Positions 55,911 to 64,000 of a stretch of 64,000 nucleotides of DNA are shown one piece after another (the first letter of the stretch is position 1; the number at the start of each line of letters is the position of its first letter). The notes beneath the pieces are model-generated. The model searched no databases and was not told where the DNA came from. It saw nothing but the letters and a program-made list of their open reading frames with translations. The position numbers were made by a program, and so were the translations under genes. Origin of the DNA: Paraflavitalea pollutisoli (lineage in GTDB: Bacteria > Bacteroidota > Bacteroidia > Chitinophagales > Chitinophagaceae); NCBI RefSeq assembly GCF_029360705.1, contig NZ_JARKMX010000008.1, positions 3,913,479-3,977,478 on the forward strand, given 5' to 3'.

Positions 55911-55931
55911 AAACTACCACAAAGTGGTATT
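55911..55931. promoter_or_regulatory. Palindrome copy 1, upstream of the NarL-type regulator
   Basis: AAACTACCAC-AAA-GTGGTAT: arms TACCAC/GTGGTA around three bases. It ends about 33 bases before the regulator ATG. GAACTTTG at 55952-55959 could be a weak -7 box; it would give a nearly leaderless mRNA. Confidence 0.65.
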
Positions 55932-55963
55932 CCCCGATTCCTTAAAACCCAGAACTTTGTGCC

Positions 55964-56614
55964 ATGGATATTAGTATTTGCATAGTTGACGACAATAAGG
56001 ATATCCGCTCGGCCCTGGAACAGATTGTTCTGATGTCGGACGGGTACCAGTTATTGGGAAGTTTTGGTTCTGCGGAAGAAGCCATGCAACAGATACCTTT
56101 GCTGAAGCCCGAAATAGTGCTGATGGACATCAACCTGGGTGAAGGAGAAAGTGGTATAGATTGTGTGCGACACCTGAAAGCTGAATACCCCGAAATTCTT
56201 TTCATGATGTGTACCGTGTATGAAGATGACGAAAAGATCTTCGAGGCATTGACAGCAGGCGCCAGCGGTTATATTCTGAAGAAAACAGCTCCCCATAAAT
56301 TGCTGGAAGCCATTCGCGAATTACAGGAAGGCGGTGCTCCCATGAGCAGCCAGATCGCCCGTAAAGTAGTGAGCGCTTTTCAACACAATAAACCAGCCGG
56401 GAAAGAAGCAACTGTAGAAAATGCTTCCCTGAGCGTTCTTTCCAACCGCGAAAAAGAGATCCTCGAGCTGCTGGCCAAAGGCATGCTGTACAAAGAGATT
56501 GCTGCCAGCCTCTTCATCAGCCAGGAAACCGTTCGCAAACACGTATACCACATATACGAAAAACTCCACGTCAATAACCGCGTGGAAGCCATCAACAAAT
56601 TCTTTGGACGTTAA
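55964..56614 (+). CDS. Orphan NarL/FixJ-type response regulator
   Basis: A 216-residue regulator. The receiver domain (1-120) has the acidic pair in CIVDDNKD, phosphorylation Asp 55 (IVLMDINLGE), a switch Thr in MMCTVYEDD and Lys 106 (GYILKKTAP). The LuxR-type helix-turn-helix is at about 150-212 (LSNREKEILELLAKGMLYKEIAASLFISQETVRKHVYHIYEKLHV). No histidine kinase gene is next to it; the nearest is 3.7 kb away and is paired with a LytTR regulator. Palindromes of one sequence flank the gene, so it probably binds them and regulates itself. Confidence 0.94.
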   Translation: MDISICIVDDNKDIRSALEQIVLMSDGYQLLGSFGSAEEAMQQIPLLKPEIVLMDINLGEGESGIDCVRHLKAEYPEILFMMCTVYEDDEKIFEALTAGASGYILKKTAPHKLLEAIRELQEGGAPMSSQIARKVVSAFQHNKPAGKEATVENASLSVLSNREKEILELLAKGMLYKEIAASLFISQETVRKHVYHIYEKLHVNNRVEAINKFFGR

Positions 56615-56625
56615 CAGATCATACT

Positions 56626-56676
56626 AAAACGGCCCTGGTGATCAGTGTATAGCCATGATTACCAGGGTCGTTTTAA
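56626..56676 (+). terminator. Terminator of the response regulator gene
   Basis: A 19-base stem (AAAACGGCCCTGGTGATCA with its complement, two G-U pairs) around an 11-base loop, ending in CGTTTT. Confidence 0.85.
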
Positions 56677-56737
56677 TCTTTACACCACGTCTTAGTCCCG
56701 TGCTGCACCAGATCCACCTCGCCGGAACAGATAGCGA

Positions 56738-56758
56738 AAACTACCACTTTGTGGTATT
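56738..56758. promoter_or_regulatory. Palindrome copy 2, upstream of a small RNA promoter
   Basis: AAAACTACCAC-TTT-GTGGTATT: the same arms and flanks as copy 1, with TTT in place of AAA. It directly abuts the -33 element at 56756-56759. Confidence 0.7.
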
Positions 56759-56787
56759 GGCCAGTGTGGCCTTCATTTTTACCTTTG
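56756..56787 (+). promoter_or_regulatory. Promoter of the candidate small RNA
   Basis: ATTG, a 20-base spacer and TACCTTTG, the same spacing as the tRNA promoter in this window. The palindrome centre is about 45 bases before the expected start site, a typical activator position. Confidence 0.6.
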
Positions 56788-56793
56788 CTCCGG

Positions 56794-56938
56794 ATCGCAT
56801 TATCTGATAACATTCGCCATTAAACCTAATCTTTTTACCTTTTTACTGTTACACGGAGCCAGTAGTAACAGACATTAACCACCTTATCGCATTCATAGTA
56901 AAAAGCCGTCCAACTTGATACCCAAGGGACGGCTTTTT
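56794..56938 (+). ncRNA. Candidate small non-coding RNA of about 145 bases
   Basis: The interval from the predicted start site to the T run has no ATG or GTG on the plus strand. It contains one perfect stem, CTGTTAC (56846-56852) with GTAACAG (56865-56871), and ends in the terminator at 56901-56938. With its own promoter and an operator shared with the response regulator, this looks like a regulated small RNA. I do not recognise a known RNA family. Alternatively the terminator serves only the convergent gene and the promoter is fortuitous. Confidence 0.5.
56901..56938. terminator. Bidirectional terminator
   Basis: AAAAGCCGTCC pairs with GGACGGCTTTT; an inner CTTG/CAAG stem closes the loop. 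There is a five-base T run on each strand. It serves the 732-residue protein gene (-) and the small RNA (+). Confidence 0.85.
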
Positions 56939-56971
56939 GTATTGCGCCTTTCCAATTCTTATCGTTTACTC

Positions 56972-59170
56972 CTATGCATCCGGCTCGATCGCAAACGCAG
57001 CCGTATCACTCGAATCAAACTGCCATACACGCTCACTGCCATTCGTGTGATAAGCCGTCACATAGATATTCTCCGCAAATGCCGCCTGTGTGCAAGATCC
57101 CAACAGGTTGGGTACGGTGCGCGACAATTGGTAATTGGTCAGCGCTCCATTCACCAGTATATTGTGCGAAGGTTCCGGCACCTGGCCACTCACATTCGCT
57201 GCCGCACCCGGTGTACTATTACCCTTGGTGACATTGAAGCCATACTTCGCATAGTTGCGTGGCTGATGAGCATCGAAGCGGAACAATACCTGACCCGGCG
57301 ACAAATGATTGTAGGTAGCAAAACCACAGATCGTATCCGTTGTAGTACCCGCACCCGAGTCACTGCGTACCACCGCATCGAAGATCTCACAAGTAGTAGC
57401 TTCATTATCGACACGCAGCAGGAAGCGGAAACCAGTAACATTCCCTACCCCATTGCGTACCAGGTAATCAGAATCGACACCACCCGCCGGCGTAGACAAT
57501 GGATAAGGGGGAGAAGCCAGCAAAGAATCTACCTGGAATACCGTATCACTCACGACCTGTGTATTACCGGCATTGTCGCACAACTCCAGCACAAACTCAT
57601 AGACACCACCTGCCATACCAGCAGCATTCACCCGGATAGAAGCCGTATCATCCGTTTCCCAACGGGCACCCGCTACACCAGTCGCTGCGACCGCATCGAC
57701 ATTCGGTATTTTGTAGATCTTACCCGAACCTACCGTTTGGTCCATCTCATACAAACCGGTATAGAACACCTCCGTACCCATAAAGTCACCGGGATAGGTA
57801 TAAGCTTTCGAGAGTGGTCCCTGTTGGTAATCAAAATCACCCAGCGGCAATGCGCCCAGATCCTGGTTGGTGATACGACGGTACTTCCAGCGATAATGCG
57901 TAACCGTTGCACCCGGGAAGCCATCGCCAAACTTCACGACAAAATCAAAAGCCTGCGTAAAGGGGCTCACATAATTATTTCCTTCCACGCCCGTATTGTT
58001 GGTCAAGCCGCGCACATCAACAAAAGGACTCGGCGTTTGTGCGGAAGCAGCATGCATCGCGATCTTGCGGATCGAAGTGCCATTACCCACCCTGCGCACA
58101 AAAACGATCTCACCTTCCAGCGGTGTGCAGGAACAGGGAGCTACCCGCGTATCGGTCAGCGTAATATTGATATCGCTGCCGCAGGCATAGTTCCACCGGG
58201 TACCGCAAGGCAAGCCCGGATCATATACTGTCACCCAGTTGCCCTCATACAACACTTCCACTTTCACATACACATCCGGTTGATCGTTGTCGAGGATCAG
58301 GTACCAGGCGTCGAACTTGCCGTTGCAATCCGACTCGACCGTAGTGATCAGCTGCCTGGTATAGAACCAATGATGGTACAGCGGATACAGGCAGAAATAC
58401 GGATACAGTATCTTGTAGTTGGCCGCAATGGTTTGCTGTACCACGTCCAGCGCATCAGACTGCAGGCCTGCCTGTAATTCTTCGGAGAGTGCCGGCAGCG
58501 CCTTTAACTTCAGCTCATTGGTCAACTTCTGATCAGGTTTCAGCAAGCGCAGCGGTAAGCTATCTTTCACCCGCGGTGCCGTTGCCCGTACGATGGGCCG
58601 GGCAGGTATCGGGGGAATAATATCGAGTTGTACTTTTTCCCGCAAAGTCTTCCGGAACCAATCGCGGATATCCACTACCACATATTCAGGAATATCGGGC
58701 AGTACAAAATGAAACCGGTCTACTTCGTAAATGCTCACGCGGGCATGACACACGGGATGCTTTTTGTTCTGACCATCGATATTGAAGTATTTGCTGAGGT
58801 GGCCGGTAATATGACAGAAACGGAAAGGAAAGAAATCGAGGTCGAGACCAGAAGGCAGTCGCTGCAGGTCGACTATATTTTCCCGGTTGAATTTAAGGCC
58901 CACCTCAAAAGCTTTGCTCTTGAGCAGGTGCCGCTCGGTCAGTTGACGGATACCCGCCTCTTTCGAAAAGGAAGCACCCACATACAGTTTACCTCCTGAA
59001 TGAAGGACCTGCTTCGAAGTATTGAGGAAAGCTTCATTGCCTTTAAAAGGAGCTTCTTCAATCACCTGACCATTGGTGTCGACAACATATACCCGGAGTT
59101 TTTCGGGATAGGCAATACCGGCCTCTTTCGACAAGCGCACCCGTACCGGTACATTCGTTCTCTTATCCAT
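56972..59170 (-). CDS. Large unrecognised protein, beta-sandwich-like, no signal peptide
   Basis: I do not recognise this 732-residue protein. The N-terminus (MDKRTNVPVRVRLSKEAG) has no signal peptide or membrane helix. Residues about 1-100 look like a small beta domain (VRVRLSKEAGIAYPEKLRVYVVDT). A carboxypeptidase-regulatory-like segment may follow (FCHITGHLSKYF ... KHPVCHARVSIYEVDRFHF), then a long helical part and, from about 270, strand-rich regions with cysteines (LPCGTRWNYACGSD, VAPCSCTPLEGEI). Near the C-terminus GGVYEFVLELCDNAGN resembles an Ig or fibronectin-like strand pattern. The size and beta domains suggest an extracellular or particle-bound protein, but how it would leave the cell is unclear. 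It is a single-gene unit with a long leader. Confidence 0.8.
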   Translation of the reverse strand: MDKRTNVPVRVRLSKEAGIAYPEKLRVYVVDTNGQVIEEAPFKGNEAFLNTSKQVLHSGGKLYVGASFSKEAGIRQLTERHLLKSKAFEVGLKFNRENIVDLQRLPSGLDLDFFPFRFCHITGHLSKYFNIDGQNKKHPVCHARVSIYEVDRFHFVLPDIPEYVVVDIRDWFRKTLREKVQLDIIPPIPARPIVRATAPRVKDSLPLRLLKPDQKLTNELKLKALPALSEELQAGLQSDALDVVQQTIAANYKILYPYFCLYPLYHHWFYTRQLITTVESDCNGKFDAWYLILDNDQPDVYVKVEVLYEGNWVTVYDPGLPCGTRWNYACGSDINITLTDTRVAPCSCTPLEGEIVFVRRVGNGTSIRKIAMHAASAQTPSPFVDVRGLTNNTGVEGNNYVSPFTQAFDFVVKFGDGFPGATVTHYRWKYRRITNQDLGALPLGDFDYQQGPLSKAYTYPGDFMGTEVFYTGLYEMDQTVGSGKIYKIPNVDAVAATGVAGARWETDDTASIRVNAAGMAGGVYEFVLELCDNAGNTQVVSDTVFQVDSLLASPPYPLSTPAGGVDSDYLVRNGVGNVTGFRFLLRVDNEATTCEIFDAVVRSDSGAGTTTDTICGFATYNHLSPGQVLFRFDAHQPRNYAKYGFNVTKGNSTPGAAANVSGQVPEPSHNILVNGALTNYQLSRTVPNLLGSCTQAAFAENIYVTAYHTNGSERVWQFDSSDTAAFAIEPDA

Positions 59171-59463: not shown

Positions 59464-59610
59464 TGGGGAGAAGTACTGTTGCCGCCAAACTAGTTGGCAG
59501 ACAAGAGCCCTGAGTGTCGATTATTGCTTAACTTTAACTCCATCCTACCTTATAGTCAATCGCCTGTTACATATTTCTTACACAAACACTTAGCTGCTAT
59601 ATACCCAGAT

Positions 59611-60327
59611 ATGAAAATCCTGAATTGTGTGGTCATCGACGACAACGAAGTGGATAGAAGCCTCCTGGAAGCTTATCTGTCGAAATACCCGTTCATCCGC
59701 GTAACGGGCAGCTTTTCCAATCCTGTAGAAAGCCTCGATCATCTACAACAAGCCAATACCGAACTCCTTTTTGTGGATATAGACATGCCGGTCATCAACG
59801 GCATCGACTTCATGAAGTCCGTACAGCAACCCGCCCTCAATTGTATTTTTGTGACCGCCCACCCCGAGTATGCTGCCGATGCTTTCGATGTGCAGGCGGT
59901 AGATTATATTCTGAAGCCCATCAAAGAAGACCGCCTCGACAGGGCGGTACAGCGTACACTGGAACTGTTGGAGATCAGGTCCAAGGCCATCCAATACAGT
60001 CTTTTTATCGAGAGCGATTACCTGATGATCAAGGAAGGCACCAGCATCAGCAAGGTCAACATCGGAGATATCGAATACCTGGAAGCCTTGACCAATTATA
60101 CCAAAGTCATCACCGCCAAAAGAAAATACATTACACTCAACAACCTGAAGAACTTTCTCGATTACCTGCCCACTACCCGGTTCATCCGTATCCACCGCAG
60201 TTATGCCGTGGCCCTCGATAAGATAGAAGGCATGGACAAGAATGATCTGCTGATCGCCGGCCAGCGCCTGCCACTGGGCAAAACCTTCCGGCAGGAAGTC
60301 AAGAGGAGGTTACAGGAAAACGGCTAA
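59611..60327 (+). CDS. LytTR-family response regulator
   Basis: A 238-residue regulator from the ATG giving MKILNCVVIDDNE. The receiver domain (1-120) has Asp 10 and 11, phosphorylation Asp 56 (LLFVDIDMPVINGIDF), Thr 82 (FVTAHPEYAADAF) and Lys 102 (YILKPIKEDRLD). The LytTR DNA-binding domain is at about 135-235 (SDYLMIKEGTSISKVNIGDIEYLEALTNYTKV ... TRFIRIHRSYAVALDKI). It lies 28 bases before the kinase gene. The open frame upstream of the ATG is not conserved-looking. Confidence 0.95.
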   Translation: MKILNCVVIDDNEVDRSLLEAYLSKYPFIRVTGSFSNPVESLDHLQQANTELLFVDIDMPVINGIDFMKSVQQPALNCIFVTAHPEYAADAFDVQAVDYILKPIKEDRLDRAVQRTLELLEIRSKAIQYSLFIESDYLMIKEGTSISKVNIGDIEYLEALTNYTKVITAKRKYITLNNLKNFLDYLPTTRFIRIHRSYAVALDKIEGMDKNDLLIAGQRLPLGKTFRQEVKRRLQENG

Positions 60328-60355
60328 GCGCCGGTTGAGCCAAGGAACAAATAGG

Positions 60356-62218
60356 ATGAAGCATCCGGTACGCTATATCGTTTACAGTTTGCTGCTGATA
60401 GTAGCCTGCCTGCAACAGGTTGCTGCGCAGCGCGCTCAATGGGATACGGTATTGTATCGACAGGCCAACGAATACCGCACCAAAGGAGATTATGCCAACG
60501 CCCTCACGGCCTTTCGGGATTGTTACCAGCGGGCAGTGGCCGACAAAGATTCACTACACATGGGCAACTCGCTCATCGGCATTGGCATCGTGAACGACGA
60601 GCAGGGAAGCCTCGACTCTGCCCTGCGTTATTACTTCCACGCTCTCACCATTTATCGCAACATCCACAACCCCATCAAAACAGGAGGCACACTCAAGAAT
60701 ATTGGCAATGTATACCGTGTACTGAAGCACTATGACAAGGCCACAGAATACCTGCAACAGGCCCTGGCCACGCAGATCGCCCAAAAAGACTCTACCCGCA
60801 TCGGTAACGTGCTCAACGATATTGGTCTGGTGTACATGGATCAGGATAGTATCCTTACCGCGCGGGGCTACTTCGAACAGGTCATCAACATTTATGGCGG
60901 CAAGGTCAGTAAGGAGACCAAAGCCTATGTATACAACAACCTCGGCATTATCGCTGCCGGAGCGAATCAATACCGGCAGGCACTGGAATATTACCAGGCC
61001 GGCCTTGAGCTGATGCGTCAACTGGATAAGCAATACGGCATAGCCCTGATACTGGATAATATCGGTGATACCTGGCTCGCGCGTCGCGAATATCGTCAGG
61101 CCCGTAAATACTACGATGACAGCTATGCGATCGCCCGCTCTATCAATACCAGTGAACTGCTGCGTAGCCTCTACGATGATTTTGCGCGGTTGTACAGCCA
61201 GCAGGGAGATTACCGCAAAGCGTTCGAATACCAGGCACTTGGCGCCAGCCTAAAAGACACCATATACCAGGAAGAAAGCCAGAAAGCCTATGCCGAGATG
61301 AATACGCGCTACGAAACGGAGAAAAAGCAGGCCCAGATACAATTGCTGGAGCGCGATAACAAAATTGCCAATATCGAAGTAGAATCGCAACGCCGCGGCA
61401 AATACTTGTTTCTCATCGCAAGCGCCCTCATACTTGCCGTAGCGGTATTGGTATACCGTGGCTACCGGGCACGCAAGAAAACCAACTCACAGCTCAACCT
61501 GCTCAACCAGCAACTTACCGAGGCCAACAGTTCCAAGATAAAACTGCTCAGCATCATCAGCCACGACCTGCGCGGCCCCGTCAGCAGCCTGTTCCATTTC
61601 CTGCAACTCAAGAAGATTCGCGCCGGATATGCCAATGTGCAAGAGCAGGAAAACTTCGACAGGAAGATCAGTCACTCGGCCGAGAACCTGCTCGAAGCCA
61701 TGGAAGACCTGCTTATCTGGTCCAAATCACAAATGGAGCAGTTTGAGCCGGTGATGGAAATGCTGGATATAGCCGAGTTGTATGATGAGATCATCGAATT
61801 GCATGGCCCCGCTGCCGCCAATAAACAGATCACCCTTCAACGGCAGGGCAATCCCCTGCCGCAACTCTATACCGACCCCAATTTTGTCAAGATCATCCTA
61901 CGCAACCTGGTAGGTAATGCGATCAAATTCACCCCACCCTCTGGCACCGTTACCCTGTCGGCTACCCGCGAAGGACAGATGATCCGGCTCCTGGTGAGCG
62001 ACACCGGTCCCGGGATCAGCGTAGCCGATCAACAGAACATCTTTGAATGGAACAGCATCCGCAGTGACTCCTCAGGCCTGGGTCTGAAACTGGCGCGGGA
62101 ATTTACCGAACGACTGGCAGGACAACTATCTGTCAGCTCTGCTAATGGGCAGGGCGCCCTGTTTACGGTTAGCCTGCCGGTAAAAGCCGTCCGGAAACCT
62201 TCGGCCGTAGCCGGGTGA
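60356..62218 (+). CDS. TPR-containing membrane histidine kinase
   Basis: A 620-residue sensor kinase. The signal sequence (HPVRYIVYSLLLIVACLQQVAAQ) is followed by about seven TPR repeats in the periplasm (TLKNIGNVYRVLKHYDKATEYLQQAL and similar, about 30-310), a coiled segment, a membrane helix at about 357-375 (YLFLIASALILAVAVLVYRGY) and a HisKA/HATPase kinase. His 403 is in SIISHDLRGPVSS; the N box is LRNLVGNAIKF (about 517-527), G1 is DTGPGIS (549-555) and G2 is GLGLKLA (574-580). It is probably the partner of the LytTR regulator just upstream. Confidence 0.95.
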   Translation: MKHPVRYIVYSLLLIVACLQQVAAQRAQWDTVLYRQANEYRTKGDYANALTAFRDCYQRAVADKDSLHMGNSLIGIGIVNDEQGSLDSALRYYFHALTIYRNIHNPIKTGGTLKNIGNVYRVLKHYDKATEYLQQALATQIAQKDSTRIGNVLNDIGLVYMDQDSILTARGYFEQVINIYGGKVSKETKAYVYNNLGIIAAGANQYRQALEYYQAGLELMRQLDKQYGIALILDNIGDTWLARREYRQARKYYDDSYAIARSINTSELLRSLYDDFARLYSQQGDYRKAFEYQALGASLKDTIYQEESQKAYAEMNTRYETEKKQAQIQLLERDNKIANIEVESQRRGKYLFLIASALILAVAVLVYRGYRARKKTNSQLNLLNQQLTEANSSKIKLLSIISHDLRGPVSSLFHFLQLKKIRAGYANVQEQENFDRKISHSAENLLEAMEDLLIWSKSQMEQFEPVMEMLDIAELYDEIIELHGPAAANKQITLQRQGNPLPQLYTDPNFVKIILRNLVGNAIKFTPPSGTVTLSATREGQMIRLLVSDTGPGISVADQQNIFEWNSIRSDSSGLGLKLAREFTERLAGQLSVSSANGQGALFTVSLPVKAVRKPSAVAG

Positions 62219-63405: not shown

Positions 63406-64000
63406 TTACGGCAACTCCAGTTTATTGTTCAACCGTTCCACATCTGCCATTCGCTGCGACGGATCGATCTCCATCAGCTTCAGGTCGGCCAGTTTGCGGT
63501 TTACTTCGAATACATACGTGGGGTGCGTCCATCTCCAAGGCTCCCGGGTAGAGAAAGGAATAGTAGGATCTTCTGCTTTCTTCGCACCAAACATGAAGTA
63601 CTGGGGAATGTTTACGATCTCTTTGCTACCGTCCTTGTAGCCGAGCAGGATATCCACAGGCATCGGGAACTTACCGATGCGCTTGATGCGGATCTTCGTC
63701 TTGCCCGCTTCTTCCCACAGGCTATCGATACCATAATCGATCGTCTTGGTCGTATTCACAAAATACTCGCGGTACCAATCCAGTTGCATACCACTTACTT
63801 TCTGCGCAATCACGACCAGGTCATTGACATTGGGATGTTTGAATCTCCACTGGCGGTAGTACTCGAGCAGGATCCTATCGCGCACATCGGCACCCACGAT
63901 ATAACCCAGTTGCTCCATGAATATCTCCCCTTTTGAATAAGCGGCAATGCTGTATCCAAAGTTAGTTTCGAAGTGATCGGCATGCGTAGTCAGCGGCTCT
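63406..64000 (-). CDS. M1 family metallopeptidase, C-terminal part only
   Basis: The frame continues off the right edge; the ATG at 63918 is internal. The visible 198 residues start EPLTTHADHFETNFGYS and continue with AAYSKGEIFMEQLGYIVG, the helical segment after the active site in Bacteroidota M1 aminopeptidases. It then has VVIAQKVSGMQLDWYREYFVNTTKTIDY and a C-terminal beta part. The zinc motif HEXXH must lie outside the window. The product is probably an exported aminopeptidase. Confidence 0.85.
   Translation of the reverse strand, partial: EPLTTHADHFETNFGYSIAAYSKGEIFMEQLGYIVGADVRDRILLEYYRQWRFKHPNVNDLVVIAQKVSGMQLDWYREYFVNTTKTIDYGIDSLWEEAGKTKIRIKRIGKFPMPVDILLGYKDGSKEIVNIPQYFMFGAKKAEDPTIPFSTREPWRWTHPTYVFEVNRKLADLKLMEIDPSQRMADVERLNNKLELP

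Follow-up and report, generated by a model that had tools for sequence, protein, structure and literature searches.

The window, a stretch of 64,000 nucleotides of the Paraflavitalea pollutisoli genome, contains a gene for a NarL/LuxR-type response regulator, two copies of a palindromic box (TACCACnnnGTGGTA) that lie before and after this gene, and, between the second copy and a large convergent gene, a predicted small RNA that we refer to as sRNA1 (table 1). The regulator carries a receiver domain (Pfam PF00072, 7e-22) and a GerE domain (PF00196, 1.1e-19), and both Asp55, the phospho-acceptor, and Asp10 are invariant among 16 aligned orthologs; with a receiver that holds the phospho-acceptor Asp and a GerE helix-turn-helix, the protein fits the two-component NarL/LuxR class. 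The -7-like element of its own promoter ends 4 nt before the ATG, a spacing from which we infer that the regulator mRNA probably has no leader or almost none. Of the relatives seen, Paraflavitalea sp. CAU 1676 is the closest when judged by the identity of the regulator (95-96%).

The first-pass annotation of this DNA had described the second palindrome as abutting a promoter with a 20-nt spacer, and the sequence is exactly so: the box, which starts 128 nt past the last base of the regulator gene, runs directly into TTG, 20 nt and a Bacteroidota-type -7 element. The annotation placed the operator centre near -45, in agreement with the sequence, in which the centre precedes the presumed start by about 44 nt; since the box ends at -33, this arrangement suits a class II activator, which remains an inference, and the first base of sRNA1 (about 56793) is itself inferred from the -7 element and has not been mapped. 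It is also the case, as had been claimed, that no open frame follows: on the plus strand 56788-56938, about 145-150 nt, holds neither ATG nor GTG and a single TTG (56915) that falls within the terminator, and the listed plus-strand ORFs that touch the sRNA1 stretch are a 50-aa ORF ending at 56807 and one that begins at this TTG. The terminator said to bound a stretch of about 145 nt is likewise present in the sequence as a hairpin with a T-tail, and because it is nearly symmetric it can also serve the convergent gene, which ends at 56972. A generic sigma-70 and terminator scan of the window reported neither the sRNA1 promoter nor its terminator, as the rules of such a scan (E. coli hexamers, loops of at most 8) are unsuited to this locus, where the loop is 15. 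Rfam at gathering scores gave one tRNA only for the whole window, and Rfam matches to 56600-57000 were weak and at chance level.

Table 1. Features of the regulator-sRNA1 locus and of the second box-linked RNA
Feature	Position	Strand	Basis or remark
Box copy 1 (TACCACAAAGTGGTA)	55915-55929	.	Starts 49 nt before regulator ATG
-7-like element of regulator promoter (GAACTTTG)	55952-55959	+	Sequence; spacing conserved
NarL/LuxR-type response regulator (receiver + GerE), 216 aa	55964-56614	+	Pfam
Inverted repeat, probable terminator of regulator gene	56626-56674	+	Sequence; also in same-genus loci
Box copy 2 (TACCACTTTGTGGTA), putative operator of sRNA1	56742-56756	.	Sequence and conservation
Predicted sRNA1 promoter: TTG (-33), 20 nt, TACCTTTG (-7, 56780-56787)	56757-56787	+	Sequence, conserved spacing
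sRNA1, predicted small RNA, ends approximate	56793-56938	+	Sequence, relatives, model R1
Anti-X core of sRNA1	56796-56834	+	Predicted duplex with X -34.4 kcal/mol, z -5.1, 0/100 shuffles as good (row L023)
Stem-loop CTGTTAC/GTAACAG of sRNA1	56846-56871	+	Inverted repeat; outer pairs genus-wide, inner pairs vary
Second conserved unpaired stretch of sRNA1 (CATTAACC-ACCTTATC), second possible X-pairing site	56873-56888	+	
Terminator hairpin with T-tail, near-symmetric	56900-56938	.	Sequence; loop 15
Convergent gene, 732 aa	56972-59170	-	ORF list
sRNA2, predicted, between box and terminator upstream of recA (Pfam RecA)	L164 1501-1680 (G000:C1:123454 on)		

The 732-aa convergent gene matches no Pfam family at E 0.001 and differs from the convergent neighbour found in 7 of the 8 other-genus loci inspected, the C-terminus of which is as in window ORF 63406-63918 (no Pfam match; taken by us to be an M1-type peptidase). 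Between sRNA1 and this ORF, the window holds the 732-aa gene and a separate two-component pair (a LytTR regulator, 59494-60327, and a TPR-histidine kinase, 60335-62218), and the segment 56972-63200 is possibly an insertion in this lineage.

When up to one mismatch is tolerated, the window holds two occurrences of the palindrome versus 0.09 expected; in the 8.76-Mb genome its exact form occurs 8 times versus once for the reversed pattern, and the excess is weaker when one mismatch is allowed (39 vs 25). Orthologs of the regulator were drawn from two sets (59 relatives and, from named genomes, the best 80 among 494 relatives that were confirmed), and the 200 nt 3' of each regulator were searched for the box at 12 scored positions, with dinucleotide shuffles as control. 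A downstream box matching at 10 or more positions was found at 53/80 loci (0.65 in shuffles) and a perfect one at 38/80 (0.0 in shuffles); a threshold of 9/12, which takes in the Niastella/Longitalea form TACCCACAAAGTAGTA, gave 64/80 (3.0 in shuffles). Indeed, 63 of these 64 loci carry a TAnnTTT[GC]-like element (at least 5/6) 22-24 nt past the downstream box, versus 5.7% of shuffles. Upstream of the regulator the box (at least 10/12) is present in 60 of the 80 orthologs and is followed by TTT[GAC] at 26-27 nt in 58 of the 60, a geometry equal to the downstream one. The two boxes tend to be absent together: of the 16 loci that have no downstream box, 14 have no upstream one either (the other two have imperfect matches), whereas 6 of the 64 loci with a downstream box lack an upstream one at 10/12 or better. 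Within the genus, the box, TACCTTTG and the RNA core are retained in each of the five genomes, the box with a single mismatch in one of them. Loss of the promoter in close relatives that keep the palindrome, which the first-pass annotation had named as grounds for refuting a small RNA here, was not seen in the genus, and all but one of the 64 loci have the -7-like element.

What is conserved in sRNA1 is not the stem-loop but a stretch without pairing, the core, which reads roughly ATCAAATA...TTAATCATTTTACCTTATC. The expectation that the stem would be conserved holds for its outer pairs, which are kept within the genus, and fails for its inner pairs, which vary; the most conserved part of the RNA is this unstructured antisense core, the significance of which lay beyond the sight of the earlier annotation. 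When sRNA1 was folded by consensus within each of seven lineage groups, the result was the terminator and, for some of the groups, a local stem, with nothing common to all, and a hairpin with a T-tail was detected by script at 59 of the 64 sRNA1 loci. A sequence-only model built from 61 sRNA1 loci (R1) and run on the 59 relatives recovered a regulator-linked sRNA1 in 15 genomes (8 that had given training sequences and 7 that had not), as the best match in 13 and as the second in G031 and G033. In these two genomes, additional sRNA1-like matches distant from the regulator outscore the linked one (G033:C7:12323-12412, L359; G031:C1:1283248-1283333, L366). At E 0.01 or better the model has matches in 32 of the 59 genomes, and those listed beyond the 15 regulator-linked ones are antisense to the element described below, box-only or weak (e.g., G015, G057).

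The complement of the core, TAAGGTNNAATGG, is found 26, 16, 15, 21 and 23 times in five same-genus genomes, mostly in one exact form, versus 9, 11, 4, 13 and 10 times for its reversed form. Of 30 loci fetched from this search, 19 hold a short element of about 70 nt that lies between genes (herein X) and consists of UUUUCAUAGGAUAAGGUUUAAUGGUUAAUGGUAUUUGAUUAGUG followed by a terminator hairpin and a U-run; one is sRNA1 itself and 10 are unrelated. This genome has 18 copies of X (pattern AAGGTTTAATGGTTAAYG), and a longer pattern gives 9-13 copies in five genomes of the genus, 4-9 in six Niastella/Longitalea genomes and mostly 1-3 in the other genera sampled. We analyzed 63 distinct copies that hold AAGGTTTAATGGTTAA. 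Conservation extends beyond the search pattern, with GGAT before it in 61/63 and TTTGATTAG after it in 58/63, and a terminator-like hairpin is present in 61/63; a TAnnTTT[GAC] promoter element lies at the right distance in 34/63, a second shared promoter type is seen in 9/63 and neither strict pattern in 20/63. Of the 19 copies from the genus that were viewed, 8 (L195, L203, L204, L205, L206, L209, L212, L221) have a TAGTAC-like motif about 20 nt before a TATAAT-like motif and no TAnnTTTG, a pattern which suggests that another sigma factor may control them. Puia-type genomes have a second variant of X, AAGGTTTAATGGTTAAAACACTTTGAT or nearly so (L293, L294, L299, L301, L304). Two other ideas were dropped: that the core blocks one conserved mRNA start, as the search pattern returned a repeated element with its own terminator, and that X hides a peptide (MVNGI, MVNEFD and similar), as the reading frame changes between copies.

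The RNA core is collinear and antisense to X. To quantify this match, the first 120 nt past the -7 element of 67 sRNA1 sequences (the 64 loci and three same-genus ones) were each paired with one of two lineage-specific forms of the X consensus and compared with 100 dinucleotide shuffles. The duplex energies have a median z of -4.54 (n=67), with 48/67 sequences better than all 100 shuffles and 62/67 at rank 5 or better; reversed X, used as a control, gave a median z of 0.01, with 1/67 and 4/67, respectively. The match spans most of a 38-39-nt stretch of X and reaches -47.3 kcal/mol in two same-genus relatives (L025 and L027), and a few rows show weak pairing or none (L138, z +0.4; L147, -1.4; L090, -1.5; L154, -1.7). 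The 5' part of X hardly varies among lineages, and sRNA1 varies by wobbles and loops. The model R1, trained only on sRNA1 loci, also matches the complement strand of many X copies. The complementarity of sRNA1 to X is extended beyond chance; that X is a regulatory RNA is inferred.

X and sRNA1 also occur together. The X pattern is found in 19 of the 59 relatives (18 when a match in G034, which is unlike X, is left out of the count) and its reversed control in none, and all 15 sRNA1-bearing genomes of this set are X-positive. Three genomes (G010, G016, G026) have X with no sRNA1 among the matches listed, G010 and G016 each with one weaker match. In a second set, all of which have the regulator, X is present in 34/34 sRNA1-positive genomes (hand-picked across lineages from 64 positives) and in 0/15 sRNA1-negative ones (of 16 negatives); five matches in this set are the complement of sRNA1 and not X, and each of the genomes concerned also has a true X. 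These counts cannot be treated as independent observations: on the regulator tree the absence of sRNA1 needs two changes, so that the joint loss of X, sRNA1 and the boxes counts as two events and not 15. Across 395 genomes of the phylum, the strict X pattern matches 6, all in the Chitinophagaceae-type family (6/14 there and 0/381 elsewhere), and the reversed control has one match (in G404).

The element that the core matches resembles a known family of small RNAs. FopS (RF04319) is the best of 4227 Rfam families for three of the four X copies tried (28.6, 30.2 and 32.0 bits; E 0.011, 0.0052 and 0.0024), and for the fourth (20.4 bits, E 0.45) it stands behind the Pseudomonas rnk leader (32.6 bits, E 0.00043), an implausible match that we take for chance and that shows how little E-values of around 0.003 can decide here by themselves. 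The alignment covers model positions 1-71 of 71 in all four copies; none of the four (20.4-32.0 bits) reaches the Rfam gathering score of 56 bits, and ten X or sRNA2 loci gave no match at gathering scores. Shuffles of X align as well as X itself in 4/2000 cases to the printed FopS consensus and in 21/2000 to GibS (RF04182), a relative of FopS (PMC7366714). FopS of Bacteroides is a 14-member family of RNAs of about 65-70 nt, with an unstructured 5' part and a terminator, that block SusC mRNAs at the start codon (PMC11697453). Like FopS, X is multicopy (in the genus of the window), about 70 nt long, and built of an unstructured, conserved 5' part and a terminator hairpin; the two share the sequence UUUUCAU..G.AU.AG.UUUAA.GGUUAAU. 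A promoter pattern of the Bacteroidota primary type is matched in many X copies (34/63), though not in the rest. Unlike FopS, X hardly varies, and it is found here only in the Chitinophagaceae-type family. On these sequence resemblances, X has the architecture of FopS and a common descent of the two is probable, although X does not formally qualify as a member. SusC mRNAs, considered as targets of X, gain no clear support from pairing: for 30 of the 56 scored SusC matches in this genome (217 first-look candidates), the energies of X with heuristically assigned start regions are close to background (mean z -0.49, compared with -0.10 for X in reverse; when set against 35 window ORFs of at least 200 aa, P = 0.076).

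We hypothesize, with a probability of roughly 0.72, that the regulator activates both its own gene and sRNA1, a sponge that titrates the FopS-like RNA X, a proposal that draws on the boxes, the promoters, the core, the antisense match and the co-occurrence. The regulator would bind the TACCAC-n3/4-GTGGTA box beside the -33 element of its own promoter and that of sRNA1, activating both; the unstructured core of the ~145-nt sponge would base-pair along most of the 5' part of X, which is single-stranded; and X, once paired, would be out of action, such that mRNAs normally repressed by it would be released when the regulator is active. Transcription, phosphorylation-dependent activation, binding by the regulator, pairing in the cell, the roles of effector and antagonist and the repression of mRNAs by X are all inferred. 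The central proposal of the first-pass annotation, a small RNA under the control of the response regulator, is supported by what can be read from the DNA, with transcription and regulator binding undemonstrated. Because X is nearly invariant and sRNA1 drifts yet keeps its match to X, sRNA1 would be the antagonist and X the effector, and as X hardly varies it probably has several partners.

The direction could also be reversed, with sRNA1 as the working regulator of mRNAs and the X copies as sponges that buffer it. The pairing is itself symmetric, and the multiple copies of X (18 here, 4-9 in Niastella-type genomes) suit a titrator; however, X is mostly found in 1-3 copies in the other genera sampled, it occurs without sRNA1 among the matches listed in three genomes, its 5' part hardly varies across genera whereas sRNA1 does, and it resembles FopS, a repressor of mRNAs (PMC11697453), which together leave this reversal improbable. 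A somewhat more serious, although still unlikely, possibility is that the box is real but that the regulator represses sRNA1 and itself, or that the box serves another NarL/LuxR regulator. Regulators of this class commonly control their own genes, positively or negatively, and at least 51 proteins in the genome match this one (51 of 141 candidates scored), so that another one could use the box. Against this stand the inferred class II activator position of a box that abuts -33 and the co-absence of the two boxes (14/16 vs 6/64), which ties both to this regulator, albeit through few independent events.

There is little to recommend the idea that the pairing of sRNA1 with X merely reflects mRNA starts that both RNAs bind or mimic, the main role of sRNA1 lying elsewhere. 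An ATGAAA-like extension of sRNA1 opposite the UUUUCAU start of X (L109, L112, L116) and the second conserved unpaired stretch of sRNA1 (56873-56888) would be in keeping with it, but the match covers most of 38-39 nt of X and reaches the energy seen in L025 and L027, and sRNA-mRNA seeds usually need far less pairing than this. That there is no small RNA at all, merely a spacer with a stray box and the terminator of the convergent gene, is barely tenable: the near-symmetric terminator does lie close to the convergent gene, with 33 nt between its end and the stop codon at 56972, yet promoter and core are conserved in spite of a different convergent neighbour (7 of the 8 other-genus loci inspected), and the core is antisense to X.

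The proposed regulator-activated sponge may be part of a wider use of the box, which occurs with TT after it at three further places common to the same-genus genomes (five examined). The predicted sRNA2, which lies upstream of recA, is found in 5/5 genus genomes and G033 (59 searched; L178, L175, L181, L191 and L228 in addition to the locus of table 1), with hairpins, a terminator and a 23-nt stretch, CATCGCCTTTTCCTGAATTAGTT, identical in the six sequences. The idea that sRNA2 is a further sponge of X was discarded, as z lies between +0.2 and +0.8 in five rows and at -0.3 in one. The box with a promoter and a leader of about 370 nt with repeated CCTGCCGCC-like motifs is also found before a sigma-54 activator gene (Pfam) in 4/5 genus genomes (L174, L192, L165, L171; G000:C14:125366, minus strand), and in 5/5 the box precedes a gene whose product begins MALKKK and, at 192 aa here, matches no Pfam family (L169, L187, L170, L166, L177; G000:C1:1087388, minus strand). 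We tentatively suggest, at slightly less than even odds, a family-wide three-part circuit in which the regulator, via one box, would control itself, sRNA1 as a sponge of the Chitinophagaceae branch of FopS-like RNAs and, in the genus of the window, sRNA2 near recA. If true, activation of the regulator would lift the repression that RNA exerts on a programme of nutrient uptake, and sRNA1 would be the first known antagonist RNA of FopS-type sRNAs.

Sponges of small RNAs are known from other phyla. In Bacillus subtilis, the sponge of RoxS is RosA, which is controlled by CcpA. This sponge is reported to act on the small RNA RoxS in a bacterium that has no known RNA hub protein (PMC8216469); like the proposed sRNA1 it is a sponge of a small RNA, from a different phylum. 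Bacteroides lacks the classical sRNA chaperones of Pseudomonadota (PMC11697453). Our literature search, which mostly did not reach subscription papers, found no sponge RNA of Bacteroidota among the papers listed; the word sponge has 0 occurrences in the FopS paper (PMC11697453), and sponges appear only as a concept in the GibS paper (PMC7366714). The nearest parallel for the RNA step, by analogy, would be CrfA, an Hfq-assisted sponge of the sibling sRNAs SisA-D in the alphaproteobacterium Caulobacter (PMC12559287). In both cases a separate small RNA pairs, or is predicted to pair, with the conserved core of a sibling sRNA family and cancels, or would cancel, its members; unlike CrfA, sRNA1 lies beside a response regulator gene with which it has a box in common, and its pairing would extend over most of the 5' portion of X. 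Although sponges that act on sibling sRNAs are known, what would be new is a sponge with a promoter box common to the adjoining response regulator gene, and one acting on FopS-like RNAs in a phylum for which we found none described. If this is right, FopS-like sRNAs extend beyond Bacteroidaceae and gain an antagonist, and that antagonist is tied to a signalling protein.

For the regulatory step, the comparison is with GacA-RsmX/Y/Z of Pseudomonas, in which a NarL/LuxR regulator acts through a palindrome at very few promoters, small RNAs included. The likeness lies in a NarL/LuxR regulator with a palindrome and, here, in a second conserved box-linked RNA, sRNA2; the difference is that the Rsm RNAs bind a protein (CsrA/RsmA), whereas the predicted partner of sRNA1, X, is an RNA. 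The three-part circuit, if true, would be a Bacteroidota counterpart of both GacA-Rsm and CrfA-SisA.
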